Made by a program: the position numbers and the translations under genes. From a bacterium (GTDB lineage: Bacteria > Calditrichota > Calditrichia > RBG-13-44-9 > J042), in the NCBI GenBank assembly GCA_015485355.1, contig WFTQ01000031.1, forward strand, positions 1-38,762: 38,762 nt of DNA. Reading direction: 5' to 3'. Within the stretch, counting starts at the first letter, position 1. Each line of letters starts with the position of its first letter. Of this stretch, positions 9,935 to 36,979 are shown in pieces. Below the pieces are notes generated by a model. It ran no database searches and was not told where the DNA came from. It was given only the letters and a program-made list of their open reading frames with translations.

Positions 9935-10978
9935 TCAGGGCCCAGCCACCGCCAAAAACTGATCCCGTTGCCGAAAAACCCAGATGAACAGGGCCCCTAC
10001 CAGGAAGAACTCGATGATCAACGGAACGGGATGGACCGTTAACACCGGGCCGATCAAGATCAGCCGCTCCAACGCAATCCCCAACCAGACAATCAGAGAG
10101 ATGATCAAAAGAAACCGCGGGTTGGCCTTTAATTTTCGGGAAATCAGCGTTACAAAAGGAATAAAAAATAGCAGCACTATCACCAGATAGGACAGCTCCC
10201 GCGTGGGAGAATGTGAAATCCGGTGAACAATGAGGGAGACCTCTTCGGGAAGATTTCCATACCAGATCACCAGATACTGGGTATAAAACTGCGATCCCCA
10301 GAACACACTGAAGGCGAACAGCAGGGTTGCCATGTCCATTTGCGCTTTGGGGAACCCTTCCATCTGTTGATATTGCTTGTAAAGCAGAAAGGTCAAAATG
10401 CCGCCCAGGGCCAGTCCGGTATAAAACGCCTCTATAAAGAAGTATCCGCCGAACAGGGTACTGTACCAGGGATAGTTCAAAGACATCACCCAGTCGAACG
10501 CCACTGAGGTTTGAGAAATGACATAAACCAACAGGTAGATCACAGCATAAAAGCGCTTTTTGGGTCCGTCCCGCAAAACTTCTCGCGCCAGCAAATGAGC
10601 CGTTCCGAAGGCCGCCAGCAAGAACACGATACAACGGATAATAAACAGATTCTTATTTAACCAGATGCCCGGTTCGTGCGCCCAGGGATAATATTCGATT
10701 CGGGGAATGAAGGCGACAAATAAAAAGGTGATTAAAAGGAGAAGGGGATACACACCCAGCAGATCTCGTTTATAGGGAAAGATCCATTTCCCATTGGTTA
10801 CCACTGCGGCGGCCACAACGGCCACGGCTCCCTCCACGATGGCCACCCAGAAGAGCAGATTAAACAGTAAAGACCCCCCTTTGCCTGAAGGGATGAAATA
10901 TTCAATCAAATAGACCAGCGCACTGACGACCGCAAAAACAACCGTAAATTGCAACAGCTTGCTATTTGTTCGGCTCAT
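9935..10978 (-). CDS. actF: alternative complex III subunit ActF
   Basis: This 347-residue polytopic membrane protein of about ten helices is the last gene of the ACIII operon. Family marks include NGKWIFPYKRDLLGVYP, YPWAHEPG, AFDWVMSLNYPWYSTLFGG and FSVFWGSQFYTQYLVIWYGNLPEEV, the stretch shared by quinol:cytochrome c oxidoreductase quinone-binding subunits related to NrfD/ActC. ActF forms part of the membrane core beside ActC and may provide a proton pathway. Its ATG at 10978 overlaps the actD stop by one base (TAATG), implying coupled translation. Confidence 0.92.
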   Translation of the reverse strand: MSRTNSKLLQFTVVFAVVSALVYLIEYFIPSGKGGSLLFNLLFWVAIVEGAVAVVAAAVVTNGKWIFPYKRDLLGVYPLLLLITFLFVAFIPRIEYYPWAHEPGIWLNKNLFIIRCIVFLLAAFGTAHLLAREVLRDGPKKRFYAVIYLLVYVISQTSVAFDWVMSLNYPWYSTLFGGYFFIEAFYTGLALGGILTFLLYKQYQQMEGFPKAQMDMATLLFAFSVFWGSQFYTQYLVIWYGNLPEEVSLIVHRISHSPTRELSYLVIVLLFFIPFVTLISRKLKANPRFLLIISLIVWLGIALERLILIGPVLTVHPVPLIIEFFLVGALFIWVFRQRDQFLAVAGP

Positions 10979-11418
10979 TACGGATCCTCTCTCTCAATTT
11001 GTAACACAAACTCGTTTCCATAATCTTCCGGATATAGAATGCGTTTGAAATTTGGTACCCGGGAGAGCAATACAAATCCGGTTAAGGAGGCCAGCGCCCC
11101 AAACAGAATGGTCATTTCGAAAGCTATCACAATAAATGCCGGGATTGAAATCAAGGGTTTGCCCCCGGTGATCATGGGCCAGTGTAATACGGTCAGGATG
11201 GTCAGGGCAAACCCACCGATGGTACCGGATAATCCCCCCAGAAGAGTAAAAAATTTCAGTTTGCTTTTGGGCACGTATTTTTCGAAAATCTCTTCAATAT
11301 GATGATCCGGGTGAGGGTAGACGGCGTTGACTTTTTCGGGTGCAACCCCACTGGCCAGGACTTCTTCTAATTTTTTGATAAATTCCTCCCGATCCTCGAA
11401 TCGAAATTCTTCCTTCAT
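10978..11418 (-). CDS. actD: alternative complex III subunit ActD (DUF3341)
   Basis: This 146-residue protein has a soluble start (FEDREEFIKKLEEVLASG), the conserved YPHPDHHIEEIF turn and two transmembrane helices (about 60-82 and 95-120), as expected for ActD. In ACIII it packs against the ActC/ActF core and lacks cofactors. The start is ATG at 11418, with GGAGG 7 bases upstream, overlapping the actC stop as ATGA. A longer in-frame reading to 11496 would run into actC and is rejected. Confidence 0.92.
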   Translation of the reverse strand: MKEEFRFEDREEFIKKLEEVLASGVAPEKVNAVYPHPDHHIEEIFEKYVPKSKLKFFTLLGGLSGTIGGFALTILTVLHWPMITGGKPLISIPAFIVIAFEMTILFGALASLTGFVLLSRVPNFKRILYPEDYGNEFVLQIEREDP

Positions 11419-12755
11419 GCCACTTCCTCCTTTAGCTCGGTGATGGAAATGATGGGCAGCGTCTTGGCGAAAATGAGAAACCAGGTAAAAAACCACCCGA
11501 AGCTACCCAGGGTAATTCCAAACTCGACCAGGCTGGGCATATAAAAACCCCAGGCATAGGGGTCAAAGTCATGGGCCAGAGACATCACAATGATATTGAA
11601 ACGTTCAAACCACATGCCGATGTTCACAAATATGGATACGATGAAGAGGTACGAAATATTGCGCCGCAACCGGTTTGAAAAGAGAGTGAGCGGGAGGATC
11701 ACATTGCAGAAAAACATCAGGTAGTAAAACCATTTGTATTCGCCCACCACCCGGTAAATAAACTGAGACTCCTCGAAGACATTGCCGCTCCAGAAGGCGA
11801 TGGTATATTCCACAATGTAGGCGTAGCCTACGATTAAGGAGGTAAACAAAAGAATTTGCGCCAGTTTATCGAAATCATCCACGGTAATAATTTTTTCCAG
11901 TTTAAACATTTTGCGCATGGGCACGACCAGAGTAATCACCATGGCACATCCGGAAAAGATGGCGCCGGCCACAAAGTAGGGAGCGAAAATGGTGGTATGC
12001 CATCCGGGAATGACGCTCATGGCGAAGTCCCAGGATACCACCGAATGCACCGAAATAACCAGCGGCGTAGCCAGGGCGGCCAGGTACTTATACAACTGGT
12101 TATAATGTTGCCATTCTTTAAAAGTCCCCGTCCAACCCAAGGACAGGACGCTGTAAATGCGTTTAGCAAAGCCTTTTTTGAAGCGCCGCACGATGGCCAG
12201 ATCGGGGATCATACCCACATAAAAGAAGATAGCGCTCACGGTCAAGTAAGTGCTCACGGCAAACACATCCCAGATCAGGGGGGAGCGGAAATTGACCCAC
12301 AACAGTCGCTGATTGGGATAGGGGAACAACCAGTAAGCAAACCAGACACGTCCCAGATGAATAAGCGGAAACAACCCGGCGGTTAAAACAGCAAACACCG
12401 TCATGGCTTCCGCCGACCGATTGAAGCGACTGCGGAACTTCGCCCGAAACAGAAAGAGAATCGCCGAAATCAATGTCCCCGAATGGGCGATTCCGACCCA
12501 GAAGACAAAGTCGGTGATATAGACCCCCCAACCTACGGGATTGTTAATCCCGGCCACGCCCATACCGATACGAATCTGGTGCGTCCAGGATATGGCACCA
12601 ATCAGTACCATCAGCAGGCTGATCCCCAAACCCACCCAGTATAAGGGCGTGGGTTTGCGCATGGCGCCGAGTACACGTTCCTCGATCTCGTTCTGATAGT
12701 CAATCTTTTCTCGAACCGTCATGGGTTTTGCTGTATCAACCTCTTTATGCTTCAT
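11415..12755 (-). CDS. actC: alternative complex III quinol-binding subunit ActC (NrfD-like)
   Basis: This 446-residue, ten-helix membrane protein of the NrfD/PsrC family delivers electrons from menaquinol to the Fe-S part of ActB. Marks are GWGVYITDFVFWVGIAHSGT, LFPLIHLGRVWFAYW, the segment VSWDFAMSVIPGWHTTIFAPYF and MWFERFNIIV near the end. The GVYITDFVFWVGIAH region corresponds to the quinone-proximal helix of the family. It overlaps actB by 11 bases and actD by 4 bases, so the operon is tightly coupled. Confidence 0.95.
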   Translation of the reverse strand: MKHKEVDTAKPMTVREKIDYQNEIEERVLGAMRKPTPLYWVGLGISLLMVLIGAISWTHQIRIGMGVAGINNPVGWGVYITDFVFWVGIAHSGTLISAILFLFRAKFRSRFNRSAEAMTVFAVLTAGLFPLIHLGRVWFAYWLFPYPNQRLLWVNFRSPLIWDVFAVSTYLTVSAIFFYVGMIPDLAIVRRFKKGFAKRIYSVLSLGWTGTFKEWQHYNQLYKYLAALATPLVISVHSVVSWDFAMSVIPGWHTTIFAPYFVAGAIFSGCAMVITLVVPMRKMFKLEKIITVDDFDKLAQILLFTSLIVGYAYIVEYTIAFWSGNVFEESQFIYRVVGEYKWFYYLMFFCNVILPLTLFSNRLRRNISYLFIVSIFVNIGMWFERFNIIVMSLAHDFDPYAWGFYMPSLVEFGITLGSFGWFFTWFLIFAKTLPIISITELKEEVA

Positions 12756-15561
12756 CCTTTATCTCCTTTTTCCGCAAATAATACACAGCTGGTTCGGTAC
12801 CAATTTCCTCAAACACCCGATAGGATCTATCTGAATGGGCCAATTGGGTGACCCGGGCCGTTTCATCCAGCAGATTGCCGAACACGATGGCTTCGGTGGG
12901 GCAGGTTTGTGCACAGGCCGGAATCACCTCGCCATCCCGGATCTTGCGGTTTTCATCTTTGGCATGATCGCGGGCCACCCGAATCCGCTGCACGCAGAAG
13001 GTACACTTTTCCATCACCCCTTTGTGCCGCACAAACACATCCGGATTCAGCATGCGATCCAGGGGCGTCTCCCAGTGGTGATCAAACCAGTTAAACCGAC
13101 GCACCTTGTACGGACAGTTGTTGTGGCAGTACCGGGTACCCACACAGCGGTTGTACACCATGGCGTTGAGTCCCTCGGGATTGTGCATGGTGGCGTACAC
13201 GGGACAAACCGTTTCGCAAGGTGCATTACAACATTGCTGGCATAACATCACCATAAAATTCATTTCCCGGTCGCGATCTTTACCATAAAAGGGTTCAATC
13301 CGAATCCAGGCCATTTCCCGGCCCTTCAGGTGTTCCTGTTCACCCACAATGGCCACATTGTTTTCCACGTAACAGGCCGCCACGCAAGCCGAACAACCAA
13401 TGCACTTTTCCAGATCGATGGTCATGGCCCAGCGATATTCTGGATGTTCGTGGGGCGGATACAGCGTTTCCCGCACTTCGGCATGATGTTTCATGCCATG
13501 GCCGTTATGATCCGGGAAAATGCCTCGTTCATAGGCCTCTTCCATGGATCCCGACAGAATGGGAACCGCAATCTTTTTACCGGTTTTCTGGAGCTGTCCC
13601 TCTGCAACCACCGCCAATAGTTCCCCACTGCGCGGGTCCATTTCCAGAAAAGCCCGATCCAATTGATCCCAGTGGATGGTGGAGACCTCTCCGTTCAAGC
13701 CTGGCTGAACCTTCACCGGCAGGGCCAGCCGGGTACCCTCCCGCAGAAAGGCCACTTCATCCCGGTCTTGCACTCCCAATCGTTCCGCCGTTTCGTCGGA
13801 TACGGTGATCCATTCTCCGTAGGATATGGTGGTCAGGGGATCGGGAATTTCGCTGGTTAATTTGAGCACTTTGCTTCGACCGTCGAACATTCTCAAGGAG
13901 GGCATGGCATACAACCAATGGCCCTGAGGAGGGGCATCCAGCCGGGCGGCCTTCAGGAACGCCGTGAGAGCCGGACGATTCAAACCCAGAGGCAGCGGCT
14001 TCGCCGGAAATTCAAAAAAGCCTTTCTTCAGGAATTCTTCGACAAACGCTTCGCCATAGGCGCGGTTCCACTCCCGCAACAGCCATTGTTGATAAGACAG
14101 CACGTTGGGCCGTCCCCGGTAGCCATCGGCAATGGCCAACAAGATATCGCCTTCAGAGAGGGTGTTGAATATGGGTTCCACGGTGGGTTGAATCAGGTTC
14201 AACAGGCCTTTTCTCGGTTCGGCATCTCCCCAGCTTTCCAGACTGTGCGAAAGGGGCAAAATCAGATCGCATTGTCGGGCGGTTTCGTCCACAAAATCGG
14301 TTAAAGCCACCCGGAAACCGGCCTTGGCCATGGCCTCCGCCAGCGCCACCGACGCCGGCAGCGTGCCCACAGGATTGGCACGGCTAACCAAGAGTACCCC
14401 AATTTCTCCCCGGGACAATCGTTCCACCAGTTTCTGGACGTCCTTTACGCTCCCCACCGAGGCATAATTTTCCGCGCGGGAAAAGTCCACCACCCGATCG
14501 GTTGCTCCCAGCGCCCACTGCAACAGGGCCGTCAGCACCGCGGTTTCCAGTCCGTTTTTCTGATGGACGCTAACCCCGCCACTCAAGACCAAAGGCGTGC
14601 GGGCCTCCGCCAGTCGGGCGGCCAGCCGGTTCAACACCTCGGCATCCAGCCCCGTTTTTTCCGCCACCAGATTCACATCCACTTTCGGTAACGCATTGGT
14701 GATCTCGGGAGGAATTCGTTTCTTGTTTAACCCGTTGGTCAAAATATAATGCAGCAAAAACCCCATCAGGTAGGCCTCGCTTCCCGGCCGTACCACAAAC
14801 CGTTGATCGGCCTGGAATCCGGTTAACGATGCATGCGGTTCGAAATGAACCCAGTGGAAATCATCCCGCGCCTTGGCCCGCCCCAACTGATGGGCATAGC
14901 TTACCGGACTCACGAACGTTTCCAGGAGATCCACACCCACAGTGAGCAAAAAATCGGCCTCTTCGATCCGAAAGAAAGGAATTTCCTTGCGTCCAAACAC
15001 CAGCCGATAGGCCTCCCGAAGGTTGACATGGGAAAACGGCTCATATTCAGGAAGGCGCTCCACCCGGGTTTCCTTGGCGAAATCGTCCAATAAACGGGAA
15101 AGGGATCCGGTGGTTCGGCCCGAAAGGTACACATTGCTCCGCCCTGCTCCGGAGGCATCCTTGAGGGCTTGCACCACCTGTTGCAACGCTTCTTCCCAGC
15201 TAACCGGTTGAAACTGACCATCGGGTCCCCGTTTTAAGGGCTGCTTTACCCGATCCGGATGATATAACCGCAAAATGGATGATTGTCCGCGCAAACAGAG
15301 AGCACCACGATTGACGGGATGGTCGGCTAAGCCTTCCAATTTGATGGGGTTGAAATCCACCACTTTAACGGATACCCCGCAATTGGCCGGACACTCCGTA
15401 CAGGTGGAGCCATAGTATGTCGCCTGGCCGGGAATGTAATCTTCATCTGGAGGGACCAGAAAGGGGATCAACTTCTCGGTGCTCTTTTCCACACCACAGG
15501 AGGAAAGGAGAGTGGCACTGGAAGCCACACCGACAACCTTCAAAAAATCACGTCTTTTCAT
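12745..15561 (-). CDS. actB: alternative complex III Fe-S protein ActB
   Basis: This 938-residue fusion comprises a molybdopterin-oxidoreductase-like domain (about 1-640) and a ferredoxin-like domain (about 710-900). A Tat-type start RRDFLK is followed by a lipobox-like LLSSC, so it is likely exported by Tat and lipid-anchored. The N-terminal CTECPANCGV...CLRG carries a cluster-type cysteine set, although ActB in characterised ACIII has no molybdenum cofactor. The C-terminal domain shows CIGCSACVAACYVEN, CQQCCNAPCETVCP, CVGTRYCHNNCP and CTFCVQ...CAQTCP, enough for three [4Fe-4S] and one [3Fe-4S] clusters. It relays electrons from ActC towards the heme subunits. It follows actA by 20 bases. 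Confidence 0.95.
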   Translation of the reverse strand: MKRRDFLKVVGVASSATLLSSCGVEKSTEKLIPFLVPPDEDYIPGQATYYGSTCTECPANCGVSVKVVDFNPIKLEGLADHPVNRGALCLRGQSSILRLYHPDRVKQPLKRGPDGQFQPVSWEEALQQVVQALKDASGAGRSNVYLSGRTTGSLSRLLDDFAKETRVERLPEYEPFSHVNLREAYRLVFGRKEIPFFRIEEADFLLTVGVDLLETFVSPVSYAHQLGRAKARDDFHWVHFEPHASLTGFQADQRFVVRPGSEAYLMGFLLHYILTNGLNKKRIPPEITNALPKVDVNLVAEKTGLDAEVLNRLAARLAEARTPLVLSGGVSVHQKNGLETAVLTALLQWALGATDRVVDFSRAENYASVGSVKDVQKLVERLSRGEIGVLLVSRANPVGTLPASVALAEAMAKAGFRVALTDFVDETARQCDLILPLSHSLESWGDAEPRKGLLNLIQPTVEPIFNTLSEGDILLAIADGYRGRPNVLSYQQWLLREWNRAYGEAFVEEFLKKGFFEFPAKPLPLGLNRPALTAFLKAARLDAPPQGHWLYAMPSLRMFDGRSKVLKLTSEIPDPLTTISYGEWITVSDETAERLGVQDRDEVAFLREGTRLALPVKVQPGLNGEVSTIHWDQLDRAFLEMDPRSGELLAVVAEGQLQKTGKKIAVPILSGSMEEAYERGIFPDHNGHGMKHHAEVRETLYPPHEHPEYRWAMTIDLEKCIGCSACVAACYVENNVAIVGEQEHLKGREMAWIRIEPFYGKDRDREMNFMVMLCQQCCNAPCETVCPVYATMHNPEGLNAMVYNRCVGTRYCHNNCPYKVRRFNWFDHHWETPLDRMLNPDVFVRHKGVMEKCTFCVQRIRVARDHAKDENRKIRDGEVIPACAQTCPTEAIVFGNLLDETARVTQLAHSDRSYRVFEEIGTEPAVYYLRKKEIKDEA

Positions 15562-15581
15562 CGAATTCCTCCGCTAAACTA

Positions 15582-16130
15582 TCATTTATGACACGTCCAA
15601 CAATCCGTAGGCGCCTTGGCTTGCCGATGGCAGGACACGCAAAACCCCATATTGATATTACGTGTTTTTCGCGCCGTAATCATCTGGTCAACCCGTCCGT
15701 GGCAGGTGGAGCAATCCACCCCGGCACGGATGTGCGGCTTGTGACTGAAATTCACGTTAGCATTTTTGCGAAAGCTATACACCTTCAACCATTCGATGGG
15801 GATCTGATCTTCCCAGTATTTCATCAGTTTCTTTACTTCCGGGCGATCAGTGGCCGCCGTTTTATGACAATCCACGCACAACTTGACGGTAGGTACGGTG
15901 GCAAACCGCGATTTGGAAGCAAATTGATGACAGAATTGGCAATCCAGTTTTAATTTGCCCACATGCACATTATGGGGAAACTCGATGGGTTGCTGGGGGG
16001 TCTTCTGAAAATTCTGCCAGTACCATCCCAACACCCCGATCAAGGCGATCATCACCAGAAAATAGCCGACAATCCCAATGGGAATCAGTTTCTCTTTCAC
16101 CACCATCTCCCGATTTTTAGTCTTTTTCAC
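15582..16130 (-). CDS. actA: alternative complex III pentaheme cytochrome ActA
   Basis: This protein of up to 182 residues has one N-terminal transmembrane anchor (about 14-33) and five heme-binding motifs (CQFCH, CVDCH, CSTCH, CVSCH, CWTCH), the pentaheme pattern of ActA. Single histidines such as FPHNVHVG and FSHKPHIRAG provide second ligands. It accepts electrons from ActB on the periplasmic side. The start is uncertain: GTG at 16130 reads MKKTKNRE, while ATG at 16106 reads MVVKEK. Neither has an ideally spaced ribosome-binding site, and the difference is 8 residues in the cytoplasmic leader. Confidence 0.93.
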   Translation of the reverse strand: MKKTKNREMVVKEKLIPIGIVGYFLVMIALIGVLGWYWQNFQKTPQQPIEFPHNVHVGKLKLDCQFCHQFASKSRFATVPTVKLCVDCHKTAATDRPEVKKLMKYWEDQIPIEWLKVYSFRKNANVNFSHKPHIRAGVDCSTCHGRVDQMITARKTRNINMGFCVSCHRQAKAPTDCWTCHK

Positions 16131-16144
16131 CTACCTACGAACCA

Positions 16145-17455
16145 TTACTGACCGGCCGCCTGTTGTTGTCGTTCAAACTCTTCCAGCAGGTATTCGGCCA
16201 CGGCTTCGGCTTCGTGCGGTTGCAATCCCAGATTGGGCATGGGGGGGTATTCGGTGTTCACCCGCACGGGATTGAGAATAAACTGTACCAGTTCTTCTTT
16301 CTTCCCCACGTATTTCGGTAACACATCGATGTGGGGAGGGCCTACGATCTTGCGATCGAATGCGTGGCAGGCGGCGCACCGGATGTTATAAATTTGCTTA
16401 CCCAGTTCGACGCCGGCGACCGCTTCCTCCGGGGCCTGCCCGGGCGGCACGATGCGCTGTTGTTCCAATTGCTGGGCCTGGGTCAATAAATAATTGGTGT
16501 GCTCCTGATAGGCTGTTTCCCGACCGGTGTGGTCGCCCACGAAGAATAACAGCGCTCCAACCACATACATGGGAAAAACCGCCCGCCCGATCCGCTCGTT
16601 CTGTTTAATAATCACATAATAGAGAAATACGCTACACAACATCAGCAGCAAAACAAAGGCAGCCGTCCAATGGTACACCGCCGCGGTCTTACCGATTTCT
16701 GGAAAGATGTATAAATCCCAAACCAGAAACAAGGGTTGCAACAGGGTGAACAGAAAGGCATTTCCGGATAAAAAATAGCGTACAAACCGTTTATATCCTT
16801 CGCTCTCGAAGTCCAGTCCCTCACCCCAAAGAAAAAAGAAAAACAACAGGGTCACCGCCGCAAAGCCCAGGGCAAAAGTTAACGCCCAGAGGAGCCGAAC
16901 AAACACAACGGCGGAAAACAGAGACGGCAGGCCGGAATTCATGTGGGCCCATTTTCCCGGATAGTACATCAGCGAGGTGGTTGCTACAAAACCATATAGG
17001 GTTAAAAACAGGAAAATAGCGGCCAGGGTTGCGGTTATGCGAAACACCTTTTCCTTGGCCTGAATTTCCAGCGCATAGGAGTGCGCAAAAAAGTGAAAAA
17101 TGATTCCCAGAGTGGTCAGCGCCAGAAGCGTACCGAAATGGAGCACCACTTTAAAATCGGAGTCGTATAAAATCTGGGCAAATGCGATCCCAATCACCAT
17201 GATGGGCAAAATCCCCAGAAAAAACCCGCGGCCCAGTCCACCTCCCAAGGTGCCCATTATATCCGCCGACAGGCGAATTTCATGAGGGTTTTGATCCGCA
17301 CGCCCCTTGATGTTTAATCCCAATGCATACAGGAGAGAACCGAACAGAAGGGATATATAAGGAAAGAAAAACAGTGAAAGGACAATCACCATATATTTTG
17401 CAACAATCAGGTGGTCAGCTCTCGGCTGCGAAATCAGTGCATCCCAAATAACCAT
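16145..17455 (-). CDS. polytopic membrane protein fused to a C-terminal monoheme cytochrome c (probable ACIII ActE-like component)
   Basis: This 436-residue protein is the first gene of the ACIII operon, 14 bases before actA. About eight hydrophobic helices span residues 20-305. A linker and a class I cytochrome c domain follow at about 345-430, with CAACH (360-364) and a likely axial Met in YPPMPNLGL (Met406). ACIII normally has a separate small monoheme ActE, and no such gene lies in this operon, so the cytochrome domain may replace it. Several membrane-placed histidines (for example LHFG, FHFFAHSY, VYHW) could ligate b hemes, which is speculative. The membrane half is a family I do not recognise with certainty. 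AGGAG stands 8 bases before the ATG. The protein would carry electrons from ActA to an oxidase or a soluble carrier. Confidence 0.8.
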   Translation of the reverse strand: MVIWDALISQPRADHLIVAKYMVIVLSLFFFPYISLLFGSLLYALGLNIKGRADQNPHEIRLSADIMGTLGGGLGRGFFLGILPIMVIGIAFAQILYDSDFKVVLHFGTLLALTTLGIIFHFFAHSYALEIQAKEKVFRITATLAAIFLFLTLYGFVATTSLMYYPGKWAHMNSGLPSLFSAVVFVRLLWALTFALGFAAVTLLFFFFLWGEGLDFESEGYKRFVRYFLSGNAFLFTLLQPLFLVWDLYIFPEIGKTAAVYHWTAAFVLLLMLCSVFLYYVIIKQNERIGRAVFPMYVVGALLFFVGDHTGRETAYQEHTNYLLTQAQQLEQQRIVPPGQAPEEAVAGVELGKQIYNIRCAACHAFDRKIVGPPHIDVLPKYVGKKEELVQFILNPVRVNTEYPPMPNLGLQPHEAEAVAEYLLEEFERQQQAAGQ

Positions 17456-31839: not shown

Positions 31840-31861
31840 CCGGTAAGCCACCGCTTACCGG
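31840..31861. terminator. bidirectional hairpin between convergent genes
   Basis: CCGGTAAGC (31840-31848), loop CACC, GCTTACCGG (31853-31861) pair perfectly over 9 bp. The right arm contains the stop codon of the minus-strand response regulator. On the plus strand CTGTTTT follows, giving a short U-rich tail for the metal operon. It likely serves both convergent units. Confidence 0.65.
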
Positions 31862-33225
31862 CTGTTTTCCCGCAAACGGAATTTTTTGATCAACCGATGA
31901 ATGGTTCGGCGGTCCAGTCCACAGGCCCTGGCGGTTTGGCTGATGTTCCAACCGTGGCGCTCCAATTGATATTTCAGATACTCCTGCTCAAACGCAGCCA
32001 GCACCTGTTCCTTGGCTTCTTTATACGAGAGGTTCTCCCAATGGCGTTTCAACCGGTGATATCCGCTTTGAACCAGATAAGTGGGCAGATCCACCGCTCG
32101 AATGAGGGGCGGATTGGCCAGGTAATACGTCCGTTCCACCACGTTTTGCAACTCCCGGATGTTTCCCGGCCATTCATAGTTTTTCAGACGGTCCATGGCC
32201 TCGGGCTCGACACGGTTGATCTGCCGATTGTATTTCTGATTCAACTGATGCAGGAAATGTTGTACCAGGATGGGGATGTCCTCTTTGCGTTCCCGTAAAG
32301 GCGGAATCTGAATCTGGATGGTATTGATACGAAAGAAGAAATCCTCTCGCAACAGTCCGGCTTCCAACAACTCTTCCGGCTGGCGGTTCGTCGCCGAAAG
32401 CACCCGAATGTCGACGGGGGTTTCCCGATTTCCGCCCACGCGGCGGATTTTGCGTTCCTCCAGCATCCGCAACAACTTTACCTGCATGGACTGAGGCATT
32501 TCACACACTTCATCCAGAAACAGCGTCCCCCCGTTGGCCAGCTCGACCAGTCCGGGTTTGGACTGGAAGGCTCCCGTAAAGGCGCCTTTTTCATAGCCGA
32601 ACAATTCGCTTTCGAAAAGCGTTTCCGGCAACGCCCCGCAATTGATGGGAATCAGAGGTCGATTTCGTCGGAAAGAATTTTTATGGATGCTTCTGGCGAT
32701 CAGTTCCTTCCCCACGCCGCTCTCCCCAATGATCAGCACATTCGCATTCCCGGGCGCAATTTTACGGATCATGTCAAAGATCGCCTGCATGGCGCGGCTC
32801 TTGCCTACCATGCCATCGAATTGGCAGCCCTGTTCCCGGGCCAATAGAGTCGGGGCGGCTTCCTGCAGGGCCGCCTCAATGGCCCCGAGCAATTTCTTCG
32901 AAGGAAAGGGCTTTTCGATAAAATCGTAGGCGCCATGTTTCACCGCTTCTACACCCAATTCCAGGGTACCATAACCGGTCACCATAATCACCGGCAGCTG
33001 GGGATGAGCTTGTTTGACTCGATTTAAAAATTGCATCCCATCCATACCGGGCATCTTCAGGTCGCATACCACCAGGGCAATGTCGTTGGGACGGGATAAG
33101 CGCTCCAGGCCTTCTCGAGCACTGGTTACGGCCATCACCCGGTAACCGGCCCGTTCCAGGATCTTGGCATAGCTTTCCAACATTTCCCGTTCATCGTCAA
33201 TGATCAATAATTCAATGGGCTTCAT
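31855..33225 (-). CDS. sigma-54-dependent NtrC-family response regulator
   Basis: This 456-residue activator has three parts. A receiver lies at about 5-118 (phospho-acceptor Asp55 in CDLKMPGMDG, Lys105 in EKPF). The AAA+ domain has IGESGVGKELIARSIH (Walker A), EKGAFTGA (the sigma-54 contact loop) and GGTLFLDEV (Walker B). The Fis-type helix-turn-helix is near the end (WNISQTARACGLDRRTIHRL). It activates sigma-54 promoters when phosphorylated. Its ATG at 33225 overlaps the kinase stop by 14 bases, and GGAGG precedes it, so kinase and regulator form a coupled pair. The likely target is the receiver-octaheme operon just upstream, which carries a sigma-54-like promoter. Confidence 0.95.
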   Translation of the reverse strand: MKPIELLIIDDEREMLESYAKILERAGYRVMAVTSAREGLERLSRPNDIALVVCDLKMPGMDGMQFLNRVKQAHPQLPVIMVTGYGTLELGVEAVKHGAYDFIEKPFPSKKLLGAIEAALQEAAPTLLAREQGCQFDGMVGKSRAMQAIFDMIRKIAPGNANVLIIGESGVGKELIARSIHKNSFRRNRPLIPINCGALPETLFESELFGYEKGAFTGAFQSKPGLVELANGGTLFLDEVCEMPQSMQVKLLRMLEERKIRRVGGNRETPVDIRVLSATNRQPEELLEAGLLREDFFFRINTIQIQIPPLRERKEDIPILVQHFLHQLNQKYNRQINRVEPEAMDRLKNYEWPGNIRELQNVVERTYYLANPPLIRAVDLPTYLVQSGYHRLKRHWENLSYKEAKEQVLAAFEQEYLKYQLERHGWNISQTARACGLDRRTIHRLIKKFRLRENSR

Positions 33226-34729
33226 CGGCGGCCTCCAATTCCACAATAAAGGTTGCGCCGGTGGGCGCGTTTTTCAGATAAATTCGTCCTTTATGATGTT
33301 CCACAATATTTTTTGCAATAAACAACCCCAGCCCCGTTCCTTGTCCATCGGGACGGGTAGTAAAAAACGGGGAAAATATCCGTTCGCCCAGTTCTTCCGG
33401 AACCCCAGGACCGTTATCCCTGACCTCCACCCGGTAGCCCGGTTGAGAAGCCTGAGGCAGCGGTTCCAGCACCACATCAACCGCCCCTTGTTCCGGTGCC
33501 ACCGCATGCAACGCATTGGTCAGGAGATTACAAAAAACCTGCTCCAGCTGAGAGGCATTGCCCAAAATGGTGGCCTGCGGGACCCGCGAATCCAACCGAA
33601 CGGGAACTTTCTTTTGGTGGAACAAGGGTTCCAGCACTTTAATCGATTGCCGAAGAATATGGTTGAGCTCACAACGTTCAAAAGGTCGGGGCAACTTTCG
33701 GGCATAGTGGAGGATGGAACGGGTGGTTTCGGCAATCTTTTGCGTCTGATCGATAATGATGTCCAGGTCCTCCCTGAACCGGGCATAGGCGGGCCGGGGT
33801 TCCAGTTCGCTCTTCAAATATTCGGCACGAGTCAAAATGACGCTGGCGGGATTGTTGACTTCGTGAGCAATTTCGGTAGCGATTTCGCCCAGGGTAACCA
33901 GCCGATCGGCCCGTTCAATCTTTTCCCGCATTAACGTGGCTTCGCGTTCCCGGGCGGATTTGAGCCGTTGCACCATACTATTGAACTTCCGAGCCAACAA
34001 GGCCAGCTCGTGGCGTCCGGGCATCTGCACGCTCACCCGAAAATCTCCCTCCGCCAGCCGATCGAACCCCTGAATGATGCGCTTCAACCGCGTTTCGATC
34101 TGCCCGTGATACATGAAATTTAACACCAGCCATAATATCACCACGCTGATGCCCGTACTGAAAATGGTCAATCGCTTGGCCGTCAGGTACATCTGCTCCG
34201 ACTGGGACAACACGACGTGTAAATCCATAATGGCGATCAATTCGCCTTGATTTTTATGACAGGGGGTACACTCTTCCTGTATGTAAATCCCATGATGATG
34301 GGAGTAGGTATGCCCCCGGGTGTAATAAGCTTCCTTCACATCGATTTCGTCCTTCGATACCAGGACATCCGCGGAGAGATCCTGGATTTTACGCGAAATC
34401 TCGGAAGAATCGGAGGAAAATAAGATCGTGCCATCCATGCGATAGATGCGCACCGACCGAATCGTCGGTTCCAGAGAAATCAATTCCAGATTCTTTTGTA
34501 TGGCGCGGCGATCGTTTTGCAACATTCCGGCATAAATCGCCTGATATACCACCTGGCTGGTCGTCTCTAACATATTGATGGTGAATTCCTTATAATTTTC
34601 ATCCAGAATGCGGATCAATAGAATCATGGGTCCGCCGACGACGATCAGCAGCGCCAACGTGATCAACACCATCAGGCGGAATTTCAACGTGTGCACAAAC
34701 GACCAGAGGTGTGAGACCTTGAAGCTCAT
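33212..34729 (-). CDS. membrane histidine kinase with c-type heme sensor
   Basis: This 505-residue sensor has transmembrane helices at about 18-42 and 187-206, a periplasmic domain of about 145 residues between them, HAMP (207-260), a phospho-acceptor helix with EIATEIAHEVNNP (His289) and an ATPase domain with the motifs RDNGPGVP and GTGLGLFIAKNIVEHH. The periplasmic domain contains CTPCH (154-158), so a covalent heme is expected, and a His-rich GHTYSHHHGIY just before it could supply a distal ligand. It probably senses redox state, oxygen, NO or another heme ligand. The start is ATG at 34729, with only a GGGG-type site upstream, part of a small hairpin. The longer frame to 34825 runs through the intergenic region and is not favoured. 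Confidence 0.92.
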   Translation of the reverse strand: MSFKVSHLWSFVHTLKFRLMVLITLALLIVVGGPMILLIRILDENYKEFTINMLETTSQVVYQAIYAGMLQNDRRAIQKNLELISLEPTIRSVRIYRMDGTILFSSDSSEISRKIQDLSADVLVSKDEIDVKEAYYTRGHTYSHHHGIYIQEECTPCHKNQGELIAIMDLHVVLSQSEQMYLTAKRLTIFSTGISVVILWLVLNFMYHGQIETRLKRIIQGFDRLAEGDFRVSVQMPGRHELALLARKFNSMVQRLKSAREREATLMREKIERADRLVTLGEIATEIAHEVNNPASVILTRAEYLKSELEPRPAYARFREDLDIIIDQTQKIAETTRSILHYARKLPRPFERCELNHILRQSIKVLEPLFHQKKVPVRLDSRVPQATILGNASQLEQVFCNLLTNALHAVAPEQGAVDVVLEPLPQASQPGYRVEVRDNGPGVPEELGERIFSPFFTTRPDGQGTGLGLFIAKNIVEHHKGRIYLKNAPTGATFIVELEAADEAH

Positions 34730-34830: not shown

Positions 34831-34856
34831 CCGGGATCCCCTTAGAGGGATCCCGG
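34831..34856 (-). terminator. hairpin after the octaheme cytochrome gene
   Basis: CCGGGATCCC (34831-34840), loop CTTAGA and GGGATCCCGG (34847-34856) form a perfect 10-bp stem, 52 bases past the octaheme cytochrome stop and 102 before the kinase start. A T-run (AATTTT) follows only about 10 bases later on the minus strand. It probably separates the cytochrome operon from the kinase operon. Confidence 0.6.
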
Positions 34857-34907: not shown

Positions 34908-36371
34908 TTACTTCATCAGCACCATTTTTCGGGAGAAGACCTGATCGGCGGTTTCCAGGCGATAGAAATAGATTCCGCTGGGCAAATCGGCTGCCTGGAA
35001 AGAGACCCGATGTTTACCGGGTGCCATCATCCCGTCGGCCAGCACGGCGATCTCTTGCCCCACAGTGTTGTAAACGGCCAGTCGAACCCGGGTGGTACGG
35101 GGGAGATGAAATTCGATGGTCGTGACCGGATTAAACGGATTGGGGTAGTTTTGGAACAGGGCGAAATCCGTGGGAATCTCTTCGGGGAGATCGGCGATAC
35201 TCACCAGGCCGTTGGTATGGATATTGGTGGCAAATCCGGCGGCCCATTCCACGGTCTTATCCTGATGGCAGGATAAGCAGACATAGTCGAGGGTAACGGC
35301 CCCGTACCCGTTTTCGTCCAGGCGCACATATTTGCCATCCGGAGTGAACATGGAGTCTCGTCCCACCGGCCGGGTGTCGATTTTCCATAAGTGGGTGGCC
35401 ACATCGCCTTTCCAGCCATTGCCCATCTGAGCACCCAGAGCCGATTTCCCCGCATGGGGCATGTGGCAATCCACGCATTCGGCTGCATGGGGCGTGCCGT
35501 CCTGAAAGGTAATCTGCTTGTTGGGATGGCAATTTTCGCACTGCAATGCGATTCCCGAAAGGGGATTGCCGCTGTTATCGGTACCCGCCGCCTCGGGATA
35601 CAACAGGGCCACGTGGGTATTGTGGCAAGTGGCACAGGTCAATCCCATGGAACGATGTTTGGAGGCCTGCATTTCGTTGTACTGCTCATGATGTCGGATA
35701 AAACCGCCTTTCGCGGGGATCATATTGGTTTTGCCTCCCCGGGAATGACAATCGCCGCAACGCGAATAGCGCAGGCTATCGGCCTGAATGGGCGGATGCG
35801 TGGCGGCGCTGGCCATGTGATCGCCGGCCGGCCCATGGCAGCTTTCGCAACGAATCCCCGGTTCGGCAAAGGTGCCCAGGTCGGGTGTCCGATCGTTCCA
35901 GGAACCGCTGGGATCGGGGCCGGTGGTATGGCACTTGAAACAGTTGTAATTATAGGCCTTCTGTTCTCCGTAATGATAGGCCGCCCATTGCGTTTCACCA
36001 CTTCCCCAGAGGTTGTATTGGGCCGAATCGTTTGCCGTAAAAATGTAACCATCCAGCTTGACGAAACGGGCCTTCCAGCCGAAACCGCCGATCACATAGG
36101 CGATGGAATCCCAGGTCATGGTAAAGGGAGGCTCGGGAACCCCGGGACTGGTATTGGCCGGATACTCTGGAGGGGCACCGGAAACCGGATTCAGTTTGAA
36201 GGGATGCCCGGTCTTCATGTACTCCTCATAAATATTGTAACCGGCCTGGGTCACGTCCGCCGCTCCATGACAGGAAGCACAGGCATTGGAGCCCACAAAG
36301 TCCTGAGCCGGCAAGGTAAGAGGCCATAAAAACATCAGGAGCAAAACAGGTAGAACATCGAAGCGCTTCAT
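34908..36371 (-). CDS. octaheme cytochrome c with C-terminal T9SS/FlgD-type sorting domain
   Basis: This exported protein of 487 residues has a signal peptide at 1-22 (cleavage near LPAQ). Eight heme motifs follow at about residues 31, 144, 175, 205, 246, 278, 299 and 365 (CASCH, CFKCH, CESCH, CGDCH, CATCH, CENCH, CVDCH, CLSCH), arranged as in cytochrome c554-like multiheme proteins. Residues 400-487 form a sorting-type domain: FALFQNYPNPFNPVTTI, a GQEIAVLADG turn and SGIYFYRLE. This domain is typical of surface or secreted proteins in FCB phyla. The protein therefore may carry electrons at the cell surface. It could equally be a nitrogen- or sulfur-oxyanion reductase, since the heme set alone does not tell. 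The start overlaps the receiver gene stop (ATGATGA), with AGGAGG 7 bases upstream. Confidence 0.92.
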   Translation of the reverse strand: MKRFDVLPVLLLMFLWPLTLPAQDFVGSNACASCHGAADVTQAGYNIYEEYMKTGHPFKLNPVSGAPPEYPANTSPGVPEPPFTMTWDSIAYVIGGFGWKARFVKLDGYIFTANDSAQYNLWGSGETQWAAYHYGEQKAYNYNCFKCHTTGPDPSGSWNDRTPDLGTFAEPGIRCESCHGPAGDHMASAATHPPIQADSLRYSRCGDCHSRGGKTNMIPAKGGFIRHHEQYNEMQASKHRSMGLTCATCHNTHVALLYPEAAGTDNSGNPLSGIALQCENCHPNKQITFQDGTPHAAECVDCHMPHAGKSALGAQMGNGWKGDVATHLWKIDTRPVGRDSMFTPDGKYVRLDENGYGAVTLDYVCLSCHQDKTVEWAAGFATNIHTNGLVSIADLPEEIPTDFALFQNYPNPFNPVTTIEFHLPRTTRVRLAVYNTVGQEIAVLADGMMAPGKHRVSFQAADLPSGIYFYRLETADQVFSRKMVLMK

Positions 36372-36748
36372 CATAACTCCTCCTTTTTTGATTGAAGAAA
36401 CGACTGAACAATCTGCACCAGATTTTTCATGGAAACGGGTTTGATAAAATAATTCACTCCACCCATGGAGATCACCTCGGAACAATATTTAAGATTGTTT
36501 GGGGACAATACCAGCAGGAGTTTCACTTCGCGGTTCAGGGAACGTAAAATGCGCACCAGTTGGCCCAGCCTTTCCCCCAGCAAATCCACATCCAAAACCA
36601 CCAGCTGGGCATAGGAGCGCGCAAATTTTTCCAGAAAATCCATGCTGTGCTCACCTTTGTCGATGGTCAAACGCATCTTCTCTAACTCCGCTTCCAGATA
36701 ATCCATTTCCCAATCATCCTGCCTGGCTAAAATCATTACCCGTTTCAT
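36371..36748 (-). CDS. stand-alone receiver-domain protein
   Basis: This 125-residue protein reads as a single response-regulator receiver. It has an acidic pair (Asp11/Asp12), a phospho-acceptor strand LVVLDVDLLG (likely Asp53), LLLVLSPN with Ser82, and GVNYFIKPVSMKNL with Lys103. No output domain is present. The divergent spacing of the acidic residues makes phosphorylation likely but not certain. The ATG at 36748 has AGGA just upstream. It is the first gene of the octaheme cytochrome operon and overlaps it by a few bases, so it could act as a phosphate sink or partner for the nearby heme kinase. Confidence 0.8.
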   Translation of the reverse strand: MKRVMILARQDDWEMDYLEAELEKMRLTIDKGEHSMDFLEKFARSYAQLVVLDVDLLGERLGQLVRILRSLNREVKLLLVLSPNNLKYCSEVISMGGVNYFIKPVSMKNLVQIVQSFLQSKKEEL

Positions 36749-36777
36749 TTTCCTGTATCGCCTTTATTGAAATGGTG

Positions 36778-36794
36778 AGCAAGAGGGATGCCGG
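36778..36794 (-). promoter_or_regulatory. sigma-54-like promoter of the receiver-octaheme operon
   Basis: On the minus strand the sequence CCGGCATCCCTCTTGCT gives GG-N10-GC spacing, with GGCA at the -24 and a perfect TTGCT at the -12 element. Transcription would start near 36767, about 19 bases before the receiver ATG at 36748. A small palindrome, CCGGTTCCGG (36856-36865), about 70-90 bases upstream could be an activator site. A sigma-54 activator gene lies 3.5 kb downstream on the same strand. Confidence 0.55.
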
Positions 36795-36979
36795 AAAATT
36801 TGAATAGGGGTAATCAGTTATTATTTTTGGAGTTATAGCATTTCTGGAGGGGTGGCCGGTTCCGGGGAGGCTGGGGCAGAAACGTCCCAAACAACCATAA
36901 CCCATTGATTATTTGAAAAATACCCGCGAGGCTTCCCTGTCCCACCCGTGACATTTATGCCGCATGCGGAAGCCTTCGG

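Follow-up and report, generated by a model that had tools for sequence, protein, structure and literature searches.

Multiheme cytochromes presumably transfer electrons to the cell exterior, and BccR and cbcBA represent a sigma-54 regulator of cytochromes in Geobacter. Among the described systems closest to the locus considered here, NtrC/NtrB, ZraR/ZraS and AtoC/AtoS combine a -24/-12 promoter element and paired dyads approximately 100-200 bp upstream with a membrane kinase and an activator composed of a receiver, an AAA+ domain carrying GAFTGA and a Fis-type helix-turn-helix (HTH). As described in parts of PMC2725144, the RpoN regulon of Geobacter sulfurreducens comprises sigma-54-dependent genes that include cytochromes for extracellular electron transfer, with the consensus TTGGCACGGTTTTTGCT. 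Heme-Cache domains (DUF3365/Tll0287, sCache_heme; e.g., GSU0582 and GSU0935) have a single-Cache fold with a CXXCH loop placed ahead of the last strand. In the passages of PMC12889525 on these sensors, a signalling-fused member is NO-sensor-like in one tested case and a stand-alone member is redox-like, and neither sigma factors nor NtrC are mentioned. In addition, stand-alone or receiver-like proteins that feed back on the kinase are described for kinase circuits in parts of PMC9430884 and PMC5964349.

The module described here was recognized in a contig of 38,762 nucleotides (hereafter the window; contig C31 of a 3.44-Mb draft genome of 114 contigs) from a bacterium of the Calditrichota (GCA_015485355.1). 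Genes for a receiver, an eight-heme cytochrome, a CXXCH kinase and an NtrC-type activator follow one another there, all on the minus strand (Table 1), just as an earlier note based on the sequence alone had described when it proposed a circuit leading from a heme signal through kinase and activator to the cytochrome. Based on sequence comparison, we assign a probability of about 0.86 to the reading in which a heme-Cache kinase acts through the NtrC-type regulator and an upstream dyad on the sigma-54 promoter of the receiver-cytochrome operon. In the kinase, a periplasmic single-Cache domain would hold a single covalently attached c-type heme, and a redox or gas signal at this heme would cause the kinase to phosphorylate the regulator. 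The latter would bind the dyad at 36872-36889, and perhaps also that at 36927-36944, about 100-120 bp upstream of the transcription start, oligomerise, and use its GAFTGA loop to drive open-complex formation by sigma-54 polymerase at 36794-36778. The operon would then yield a receiver that stays in the cytoplasm and an eight-heme cytochrome exported by the T9SS. Phosphorylation, binding, the transcription start, heme attachment and export are all steps that we infer, while the nature of the signal and any feedback of the receiver on the kinase are speculative.

The module is a variant of the known sigma-54/two-component kind and not a separate category. In contrast to the NtrC-type systems above, however, its first target gene itself encodes a receiver, and its operator, TGRGRCA-N4-TGYCYCA, is presumably unlike the NtrC site. 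It shares sigma-54 control of cytochrome genes with the G. sulfurreducens RpoN regulon as far as the latter is described in those parts of PMC2725144, whereas in the module the same heme sensor pair, operator and layout recur throughout a class, often with TTGT at -12. Unlike the feedback receivers in the cited parts of PMC9430884 and PMC5964349, the module's receiver is encoded at the head of the very operon that the activator would control.

Table 1. Features of the module in the window, with their positions and the basis of each assignment.
Feature	Position	Strand	Basis
NtrC-type response regulator: receiver, AAA+ with GAFTGA, Fis-type HTH	31855..33225	minus	PF00072, PF00158, PF02954
Membrane histidine kinase: periplasmic CXXCH sensor, HAMP, HisKA, HATPase	33212..34729	minus	domain search
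Strong hairpin with a stem of 11 pairs, separating the cytochrome gene from the kinase gene	34831..34856	minus	fold z -3.9
Eight-heme c-type cytochrome with T9SS C-terminal sorting domain	34908..36374	minus	8 CXXCH, PF18962, PF14522
Single-domain receiver (REC), first gene of the operon	36371..36748	minus	PF00072, E 1.3e-7
Possible ribosome-binding site AGGA ahead of the receiver gene	36751..36754	minus	sequence
Predicted transcription start (+1)	36767	minus	inferred, 12 bases downstream of the -12 C (36779)
Sigma-54 (-24/-12) promoter CCGGCATCCCTCTTGCT	36778..36794	minus	sequence, sister species G001, module promoters
Predicted proximal activator site, dyad TGGGACGTTTCTGCCCCA	36872..36889	minus	conservation, leave-out model
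Possible weaker distal activator site, two mismatches	36927..36944	minus	dyad scan

The cytochrome was sought in 98 genomes, including the host, and full-length or nearly full-length relatives with 43-86% identity were found in the same genus, order and class. Of the 40 nearest genomes, 25 contain the kinase (E<=1e-40), and in the 25 loci mapped, kinase and regulator are adjacent wherever the contig permits, the exception being G005, in which the regulator frame is short or absent. Beside the pair, most of these loci encode a receiver, a multiheme protein or both; neither was seen there in G015 or G038, nor on the kinase contigs of G030 or G007, where the contig ends. The gene maps of G008 and G015 show no receiver gene beside the pair, and in G008 a cytochrome gene near the pair follows a different activator. 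Pair and target operon are divergently oriented in G012, G018, G022, G024 and others.

Several variants of the target operon were also observed. In G007 (locus L054:1-2388), a frame with 16 CXXCH motifs represents a tandem fusion of the octaheme cytochrome behind the same promoter layout, and G018 (L118) likewise has more than one copy of this cytochrome. In G015 (L238:43-3963) and G008 (L239:2056-8766), dyads and a sigma-54 site precede a gene for a 420-aa protein followed by multiheme cytochromes, those of G015 with 11 and 12 hemes. No Pfam family was matched by the 420-aa protein that precedes the 11-heme cytochrome of G015; perhaps, and this is a guess, it is an outer-membrane barrel and the operon an outer-membrane conduit under the same regulator. 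Moreover, a record labelled 'Bacteroidetes bacterium' (L122, 3331-8830) contains kinase, regulator, receiver, 9-heme and 7-heme genes with TTGGCACTAACATTGCT before the receiver. No dyad within two mismatches was found there despite a good sigma-54 site, and the locus reflects either a wider spread of the module or a mislabelled bin.

The conserved predicted operator is the 18-bp dyad TGGGACGTTTCTGCCCCA, which has one mismatch to TGRGRCA-N4-TGYCYCA and is located 97 bp 5' of the -24 GG; this consensus was read by eye in the upstream regions of cytochrome relatives (7 of the 21 module loci). The activator site had previously been sought in a palindrome at 36856-36865. That sequence, an imperfect CCGG-TT-CCGG, is not kept in the sister species G001, whereas the dyad, which adjoins it and lies just beyond the region covered by the earlier note (36749-36870), is conserved. 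G001 has two perfect dyads, both before the receiver gene and the only two in its genome, with a proximal-distal spacing of 75 bp as against 55 bp in the window. Within the window itself, the two dyads with at most two mismatches equal the number expected by chance (2.01). Six places in the host genome have at most one mismatch, and only that of the window lies outside a reading frame; four other one-mismatch dyads viewed with their flanks, plus one on C47, were set aside as lying within reading frames. Across 40 genomes, 14 perfect dyads were detected versus 3 for the control pattern. Twelve of the 14 precede receiver or multiheme operons, several of them in the gap to a divergent kinase gene, and the other two (G017; G011:C405) fall within reading frames.

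The spacing of dyad and promoter was compared across the class using thirty tabulated promoters, about a dozen of which have hand-set gene starts and five of which (G004, G005b, G008b, G012b and G015b) were located via dyad or model searches. GGCA-N7-TG is present in 29 of the 30 (exception, G014b), and a dyad with at most two mismatches likewise in 29 (exception, G018). For 15 of 17 promoters from the window's order, the proximal dyad lies 94-97 bp 5' of the GG, the exceptions being G004 (163 bp) and G014b (no promoter match), and 12 of these 15 have a second dyad at 181-185 bp. Promoters from other families mostly have the dyad at 112-129 bp, with G016 and G025 at 162-163 bp and G028 at 190 bp, each with two mismatches. 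A joint test, requiring that a dyad with no more than one mismatch lie 90-130 bp 5' of GGCA-N7-TG, was applied to 21 module loci located through the kinase or the cytochrome. The arrangement was present in 17 of them (all but G016, G018, G025 and G028), including 11 of the 14 loci not used for reading the dyad, and was absent from eight related cytochrome genes without the kinase-regulator pair; it arose in none of 200 shuffle rounds, a control that makes no correction for common descent. Mere descent is disfavoured because the spacer sequence is divergent and the layout is reused within these genomes ahead of further cytochrome genes.

Sequence models of the upstream region gave a similar picture. 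A leave-out model built from seven promoters, with the host (G000) and G001 excluded, was searched against 119 kb and matched G001 with an E-value of 2.5e-5 and the window site with a modest 0.0089 (13.4 bits), the dyad-promoter site being the only match in the window at E<=10. Among 32 further loci, this model gave 14 matches at E<=0.1, and the putative barrel-cytochrome operons in G008 and G015 were among those matched; the eight control loci gave no match. When a second model, R1, was run on the whole host genome, the window site alone included the dyad part, and the next match (E 8e-4) covered only model positions 58-111; E-values of R1 are circular for its nine training sequences. In the 40 genomes, R1 also returned many weak promoter-only matches, which were left out of the target count. 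The circuit proposed earlier is well supported by comparative anatomy, as the pair, promoter and dyad appear to travel together across the class and are missing in the eight cytochrome relatives that lack the pair; what falls away is the palindrome as its operator.

The CXXCH motif of the kinase sensor is invariant in 21 aligned kinases, and the sensor region, modelled by AlphaFold2 from five sequences (pLDDT 78), adopts a Cache fold, for which Foldseek retrieved the WalK Cache domain (E 1.1e-5), GSU0935 (2.1e-3) and GSU0582 (1.2e-2). A second structural comparison by VIA-align gave Z-scores of 13.3-13.6 to WalK, with GSU0935 and GSU0582 absent from the 50 rows listed. In the model, C130, C133 and H134 lie in a loop between strands 117-125 and 140-149, before the last strand, which is the position described for heme-Cache domains in the relevant passages of PMC12889525. 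Pfam PF11845 matches only 6 of the 21 module kinases at E<=1 (best 0.024) and is not among the families listed for the window kinase; PF21563 is found in 13 of the 21 (best E 2.7e-7). The 'heme signal' of the earlier note is better described as a c-type heme that is probably built into the sensor domain and would respond to the redox state or to a gas, for instance NO.

With regard to the target, the start codon of the cytochrome gene overlaps the receiver stop, and the eight CXXCH motifs together with a C-terminal tail above the cut-off of TIGR04183 (T9SS sorting domain) predict a T9SS-exported multiheme cytochrome. By sequence comparison, the proteins of solved structure closest to the cytochrome are 6i5b (E 4.7e-10, residues 23-220) and 6qvm (E 1.8e-7). 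We take these to be OcwA and OmhA, reductases found at the surface of Gram-positive metal reducers; nitrite reductases also match, at E 0.01-0.2. The strongest alternative accepts the circuit and supposes that the heme senses NO, the operon then being a response to NO or nitrosative stress and not to an electron acceptor. The sensor fits the heme-Cache description, and the NO-sensor-like behaviour of signalling-fused members in the single case reported in those passages of PMC12889525 speaks for it. However, both best solved relatives are multiheme proteins, although nitrite reductases are among the weaker matches, and the targets in relatives are multiheme cytochromes and, in two genomes, a putative outer-membrane barrel together with cytochromes of 11 and 12 hemes; such targets are more in keeping with electron export. 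Redox sensing is favoured because of these targets, and NO sensing appears rather unlikely.

The regulator gene overlaps the end of the kinase gene. Among 22 orthologues, D56 is invariant, GAFTGA is kept in 21 (GSFTGA in G019), and the HTH sequence NIS-TA--CG[LI]DRR[TS]IHR is nearly invariant. Compared with NtrC proper (TIGR01818), the regulator scores 395.7 bits, under the cut-off of 558.6, and it also falls under the NCBIfam cut-offs of the other named members shown. The host genome encodes 19 strong sigma-54 activator domains, that of the window included, and a further one broken by a stop codon or frameshift (G000:C103:20595-21004). Nineteen other activator regions were fetched, of which 17 full-length proteins and one fragment were compared together, and that of C37 separately; the recognition helix CGLDRRTIHR occurs in none of the 18 other full-length host activators compared. 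On C37 (G000:C37, locus L257), a second pair of heme kinase (CYDCH) and sigma-54 activator is present, with the loop GAFTDA and a helix region 30% identical to that of the window regulator. The existence of 18 other full-length activators, one of them adjacent to a CXXCH kinase, would allow the sigma-54 promoter to be driven by a different protein, for example that of C37. We regard this as highly improbable, given that dyad and promoter accompany the window's pair and not the others and that the helix kept in orthologues of the window regulator is absent from the other activators, including the divergent one on C37.

The promoter itself, CCGGCATCCCTCTTGCT, was found on the minus strand as the earlier note had read it, with GG at 36792-36791, ten intervening bases, GC at 36780-36779 and a terminal TTGCT, the GG-GC spacing being that of the consensus YTGGCACG-N4-TTGCW given in PMC2725144. 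Its distance to the receiver ATG at 36748, given previously as about 30 bases, is 29 bases, the predicted start at 36767 agrees with the earlier note, and rpoN, whose absence had been named as an argument against the proposal, is present in the host genome (contig C76; PF04552, E 1.1e-60). In a genome scan for sigma-54 sites, as suggested in the same note, YGGCAYN5TTGCW has 19 exact matches in the host genome versus 9 for the reversed control pattern, and many of the 19 lie inside reading frames of at least 80 aa (that of the window being counted inside a spurious opposite-strand frame). In the window there is one exact match, and 10 matches with one mismatch were found versus 5.87 expected. 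By an approximate sigma-54 matrix, four other positions of the window score higher. Taken alone, the promoter motif is ordinary and does not go beyond chance; position, conservation and the dyad together place the site beyond chance. The least probable explanation, a chance match with the operon read from a sigma-70-type or other promoter, draws on the expectation that about half of the 19 genomic matches are accidental and on the fifth rank of the site in the window, but hardly accords with a promoter kept at the same offset (-46) in G001, with GGCA-N7-TG at a fixed dyad spacing in nearly all tabulated promoters, or with a simple scan, blind to other promoter types, that found no sigma-70-like site on the minus strand between 34600 and 37100. 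A second GG-N10-GC site, before the kinase gene (34897, score 11.1), was rejected, as it has no counterpart in the sister species (best score there, 4.2).

At -12, the class differs from other lineages. In 40 genomes of the class, TTGGCAYN5TTGTW has 346 matches (control, 134) and TTGGCAYN5TTGCW has 122 (control, 47), whereas in 16 author-chosen genomes of other lineages, whose rpoN presence was unchecked, 112 of the 150 matches listed (of 168) have TTGC and 38 have TTGT. Given this excess of TTGT in the class and the reverse elsewhere, the class appears to favour GT over GC at the sigma-54 -12 element; the window promoter keeps GC. Standard sigma-54 scans with GC at -12 may therefore miss most promoters in the class.

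Eighteen aligned receivers, which otherwise share 14-77% identity with that of the window, all retain D53, K103 and P104, and the receiver of the window is therefore likely to be phosphorylated. By analogy with the feedback receivers mentioned above, a guess would be that it brakes the kinase. A broader reading, which we offer tentatively, is that the module might be a fixed plug-in cassette for electron export, in which one kinase, activator, operator and layout are retained while the cytochrome is swapped (6-16 hemes or a barrel conduit), and in which the receiver would brake its own kinase by draining phosphoryl groups, making the output self-limiting. A sensor, an activator, a predicted DNA site and candidate targets can now be named together for many Calditrichota genomes, and no expression study of the module's regulon was found in the open-access library searched; the regulon would be testable with one protein and one 18-bp DNA.

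Two further observations concern the window. The hairpin between the cytochrome and kinase genes was equalled in stability by none of 200 shuffles and has no clear U tract; it may lower, or stabilise, transcript reading into the kinase gene. Elsewhere, at 9935-17455, genes for a molybdopterin/FeS protein, an NrfD-type membrane protein and cytochrome c stand in a row that, as we presume, resembles an alternative complex III cluster.
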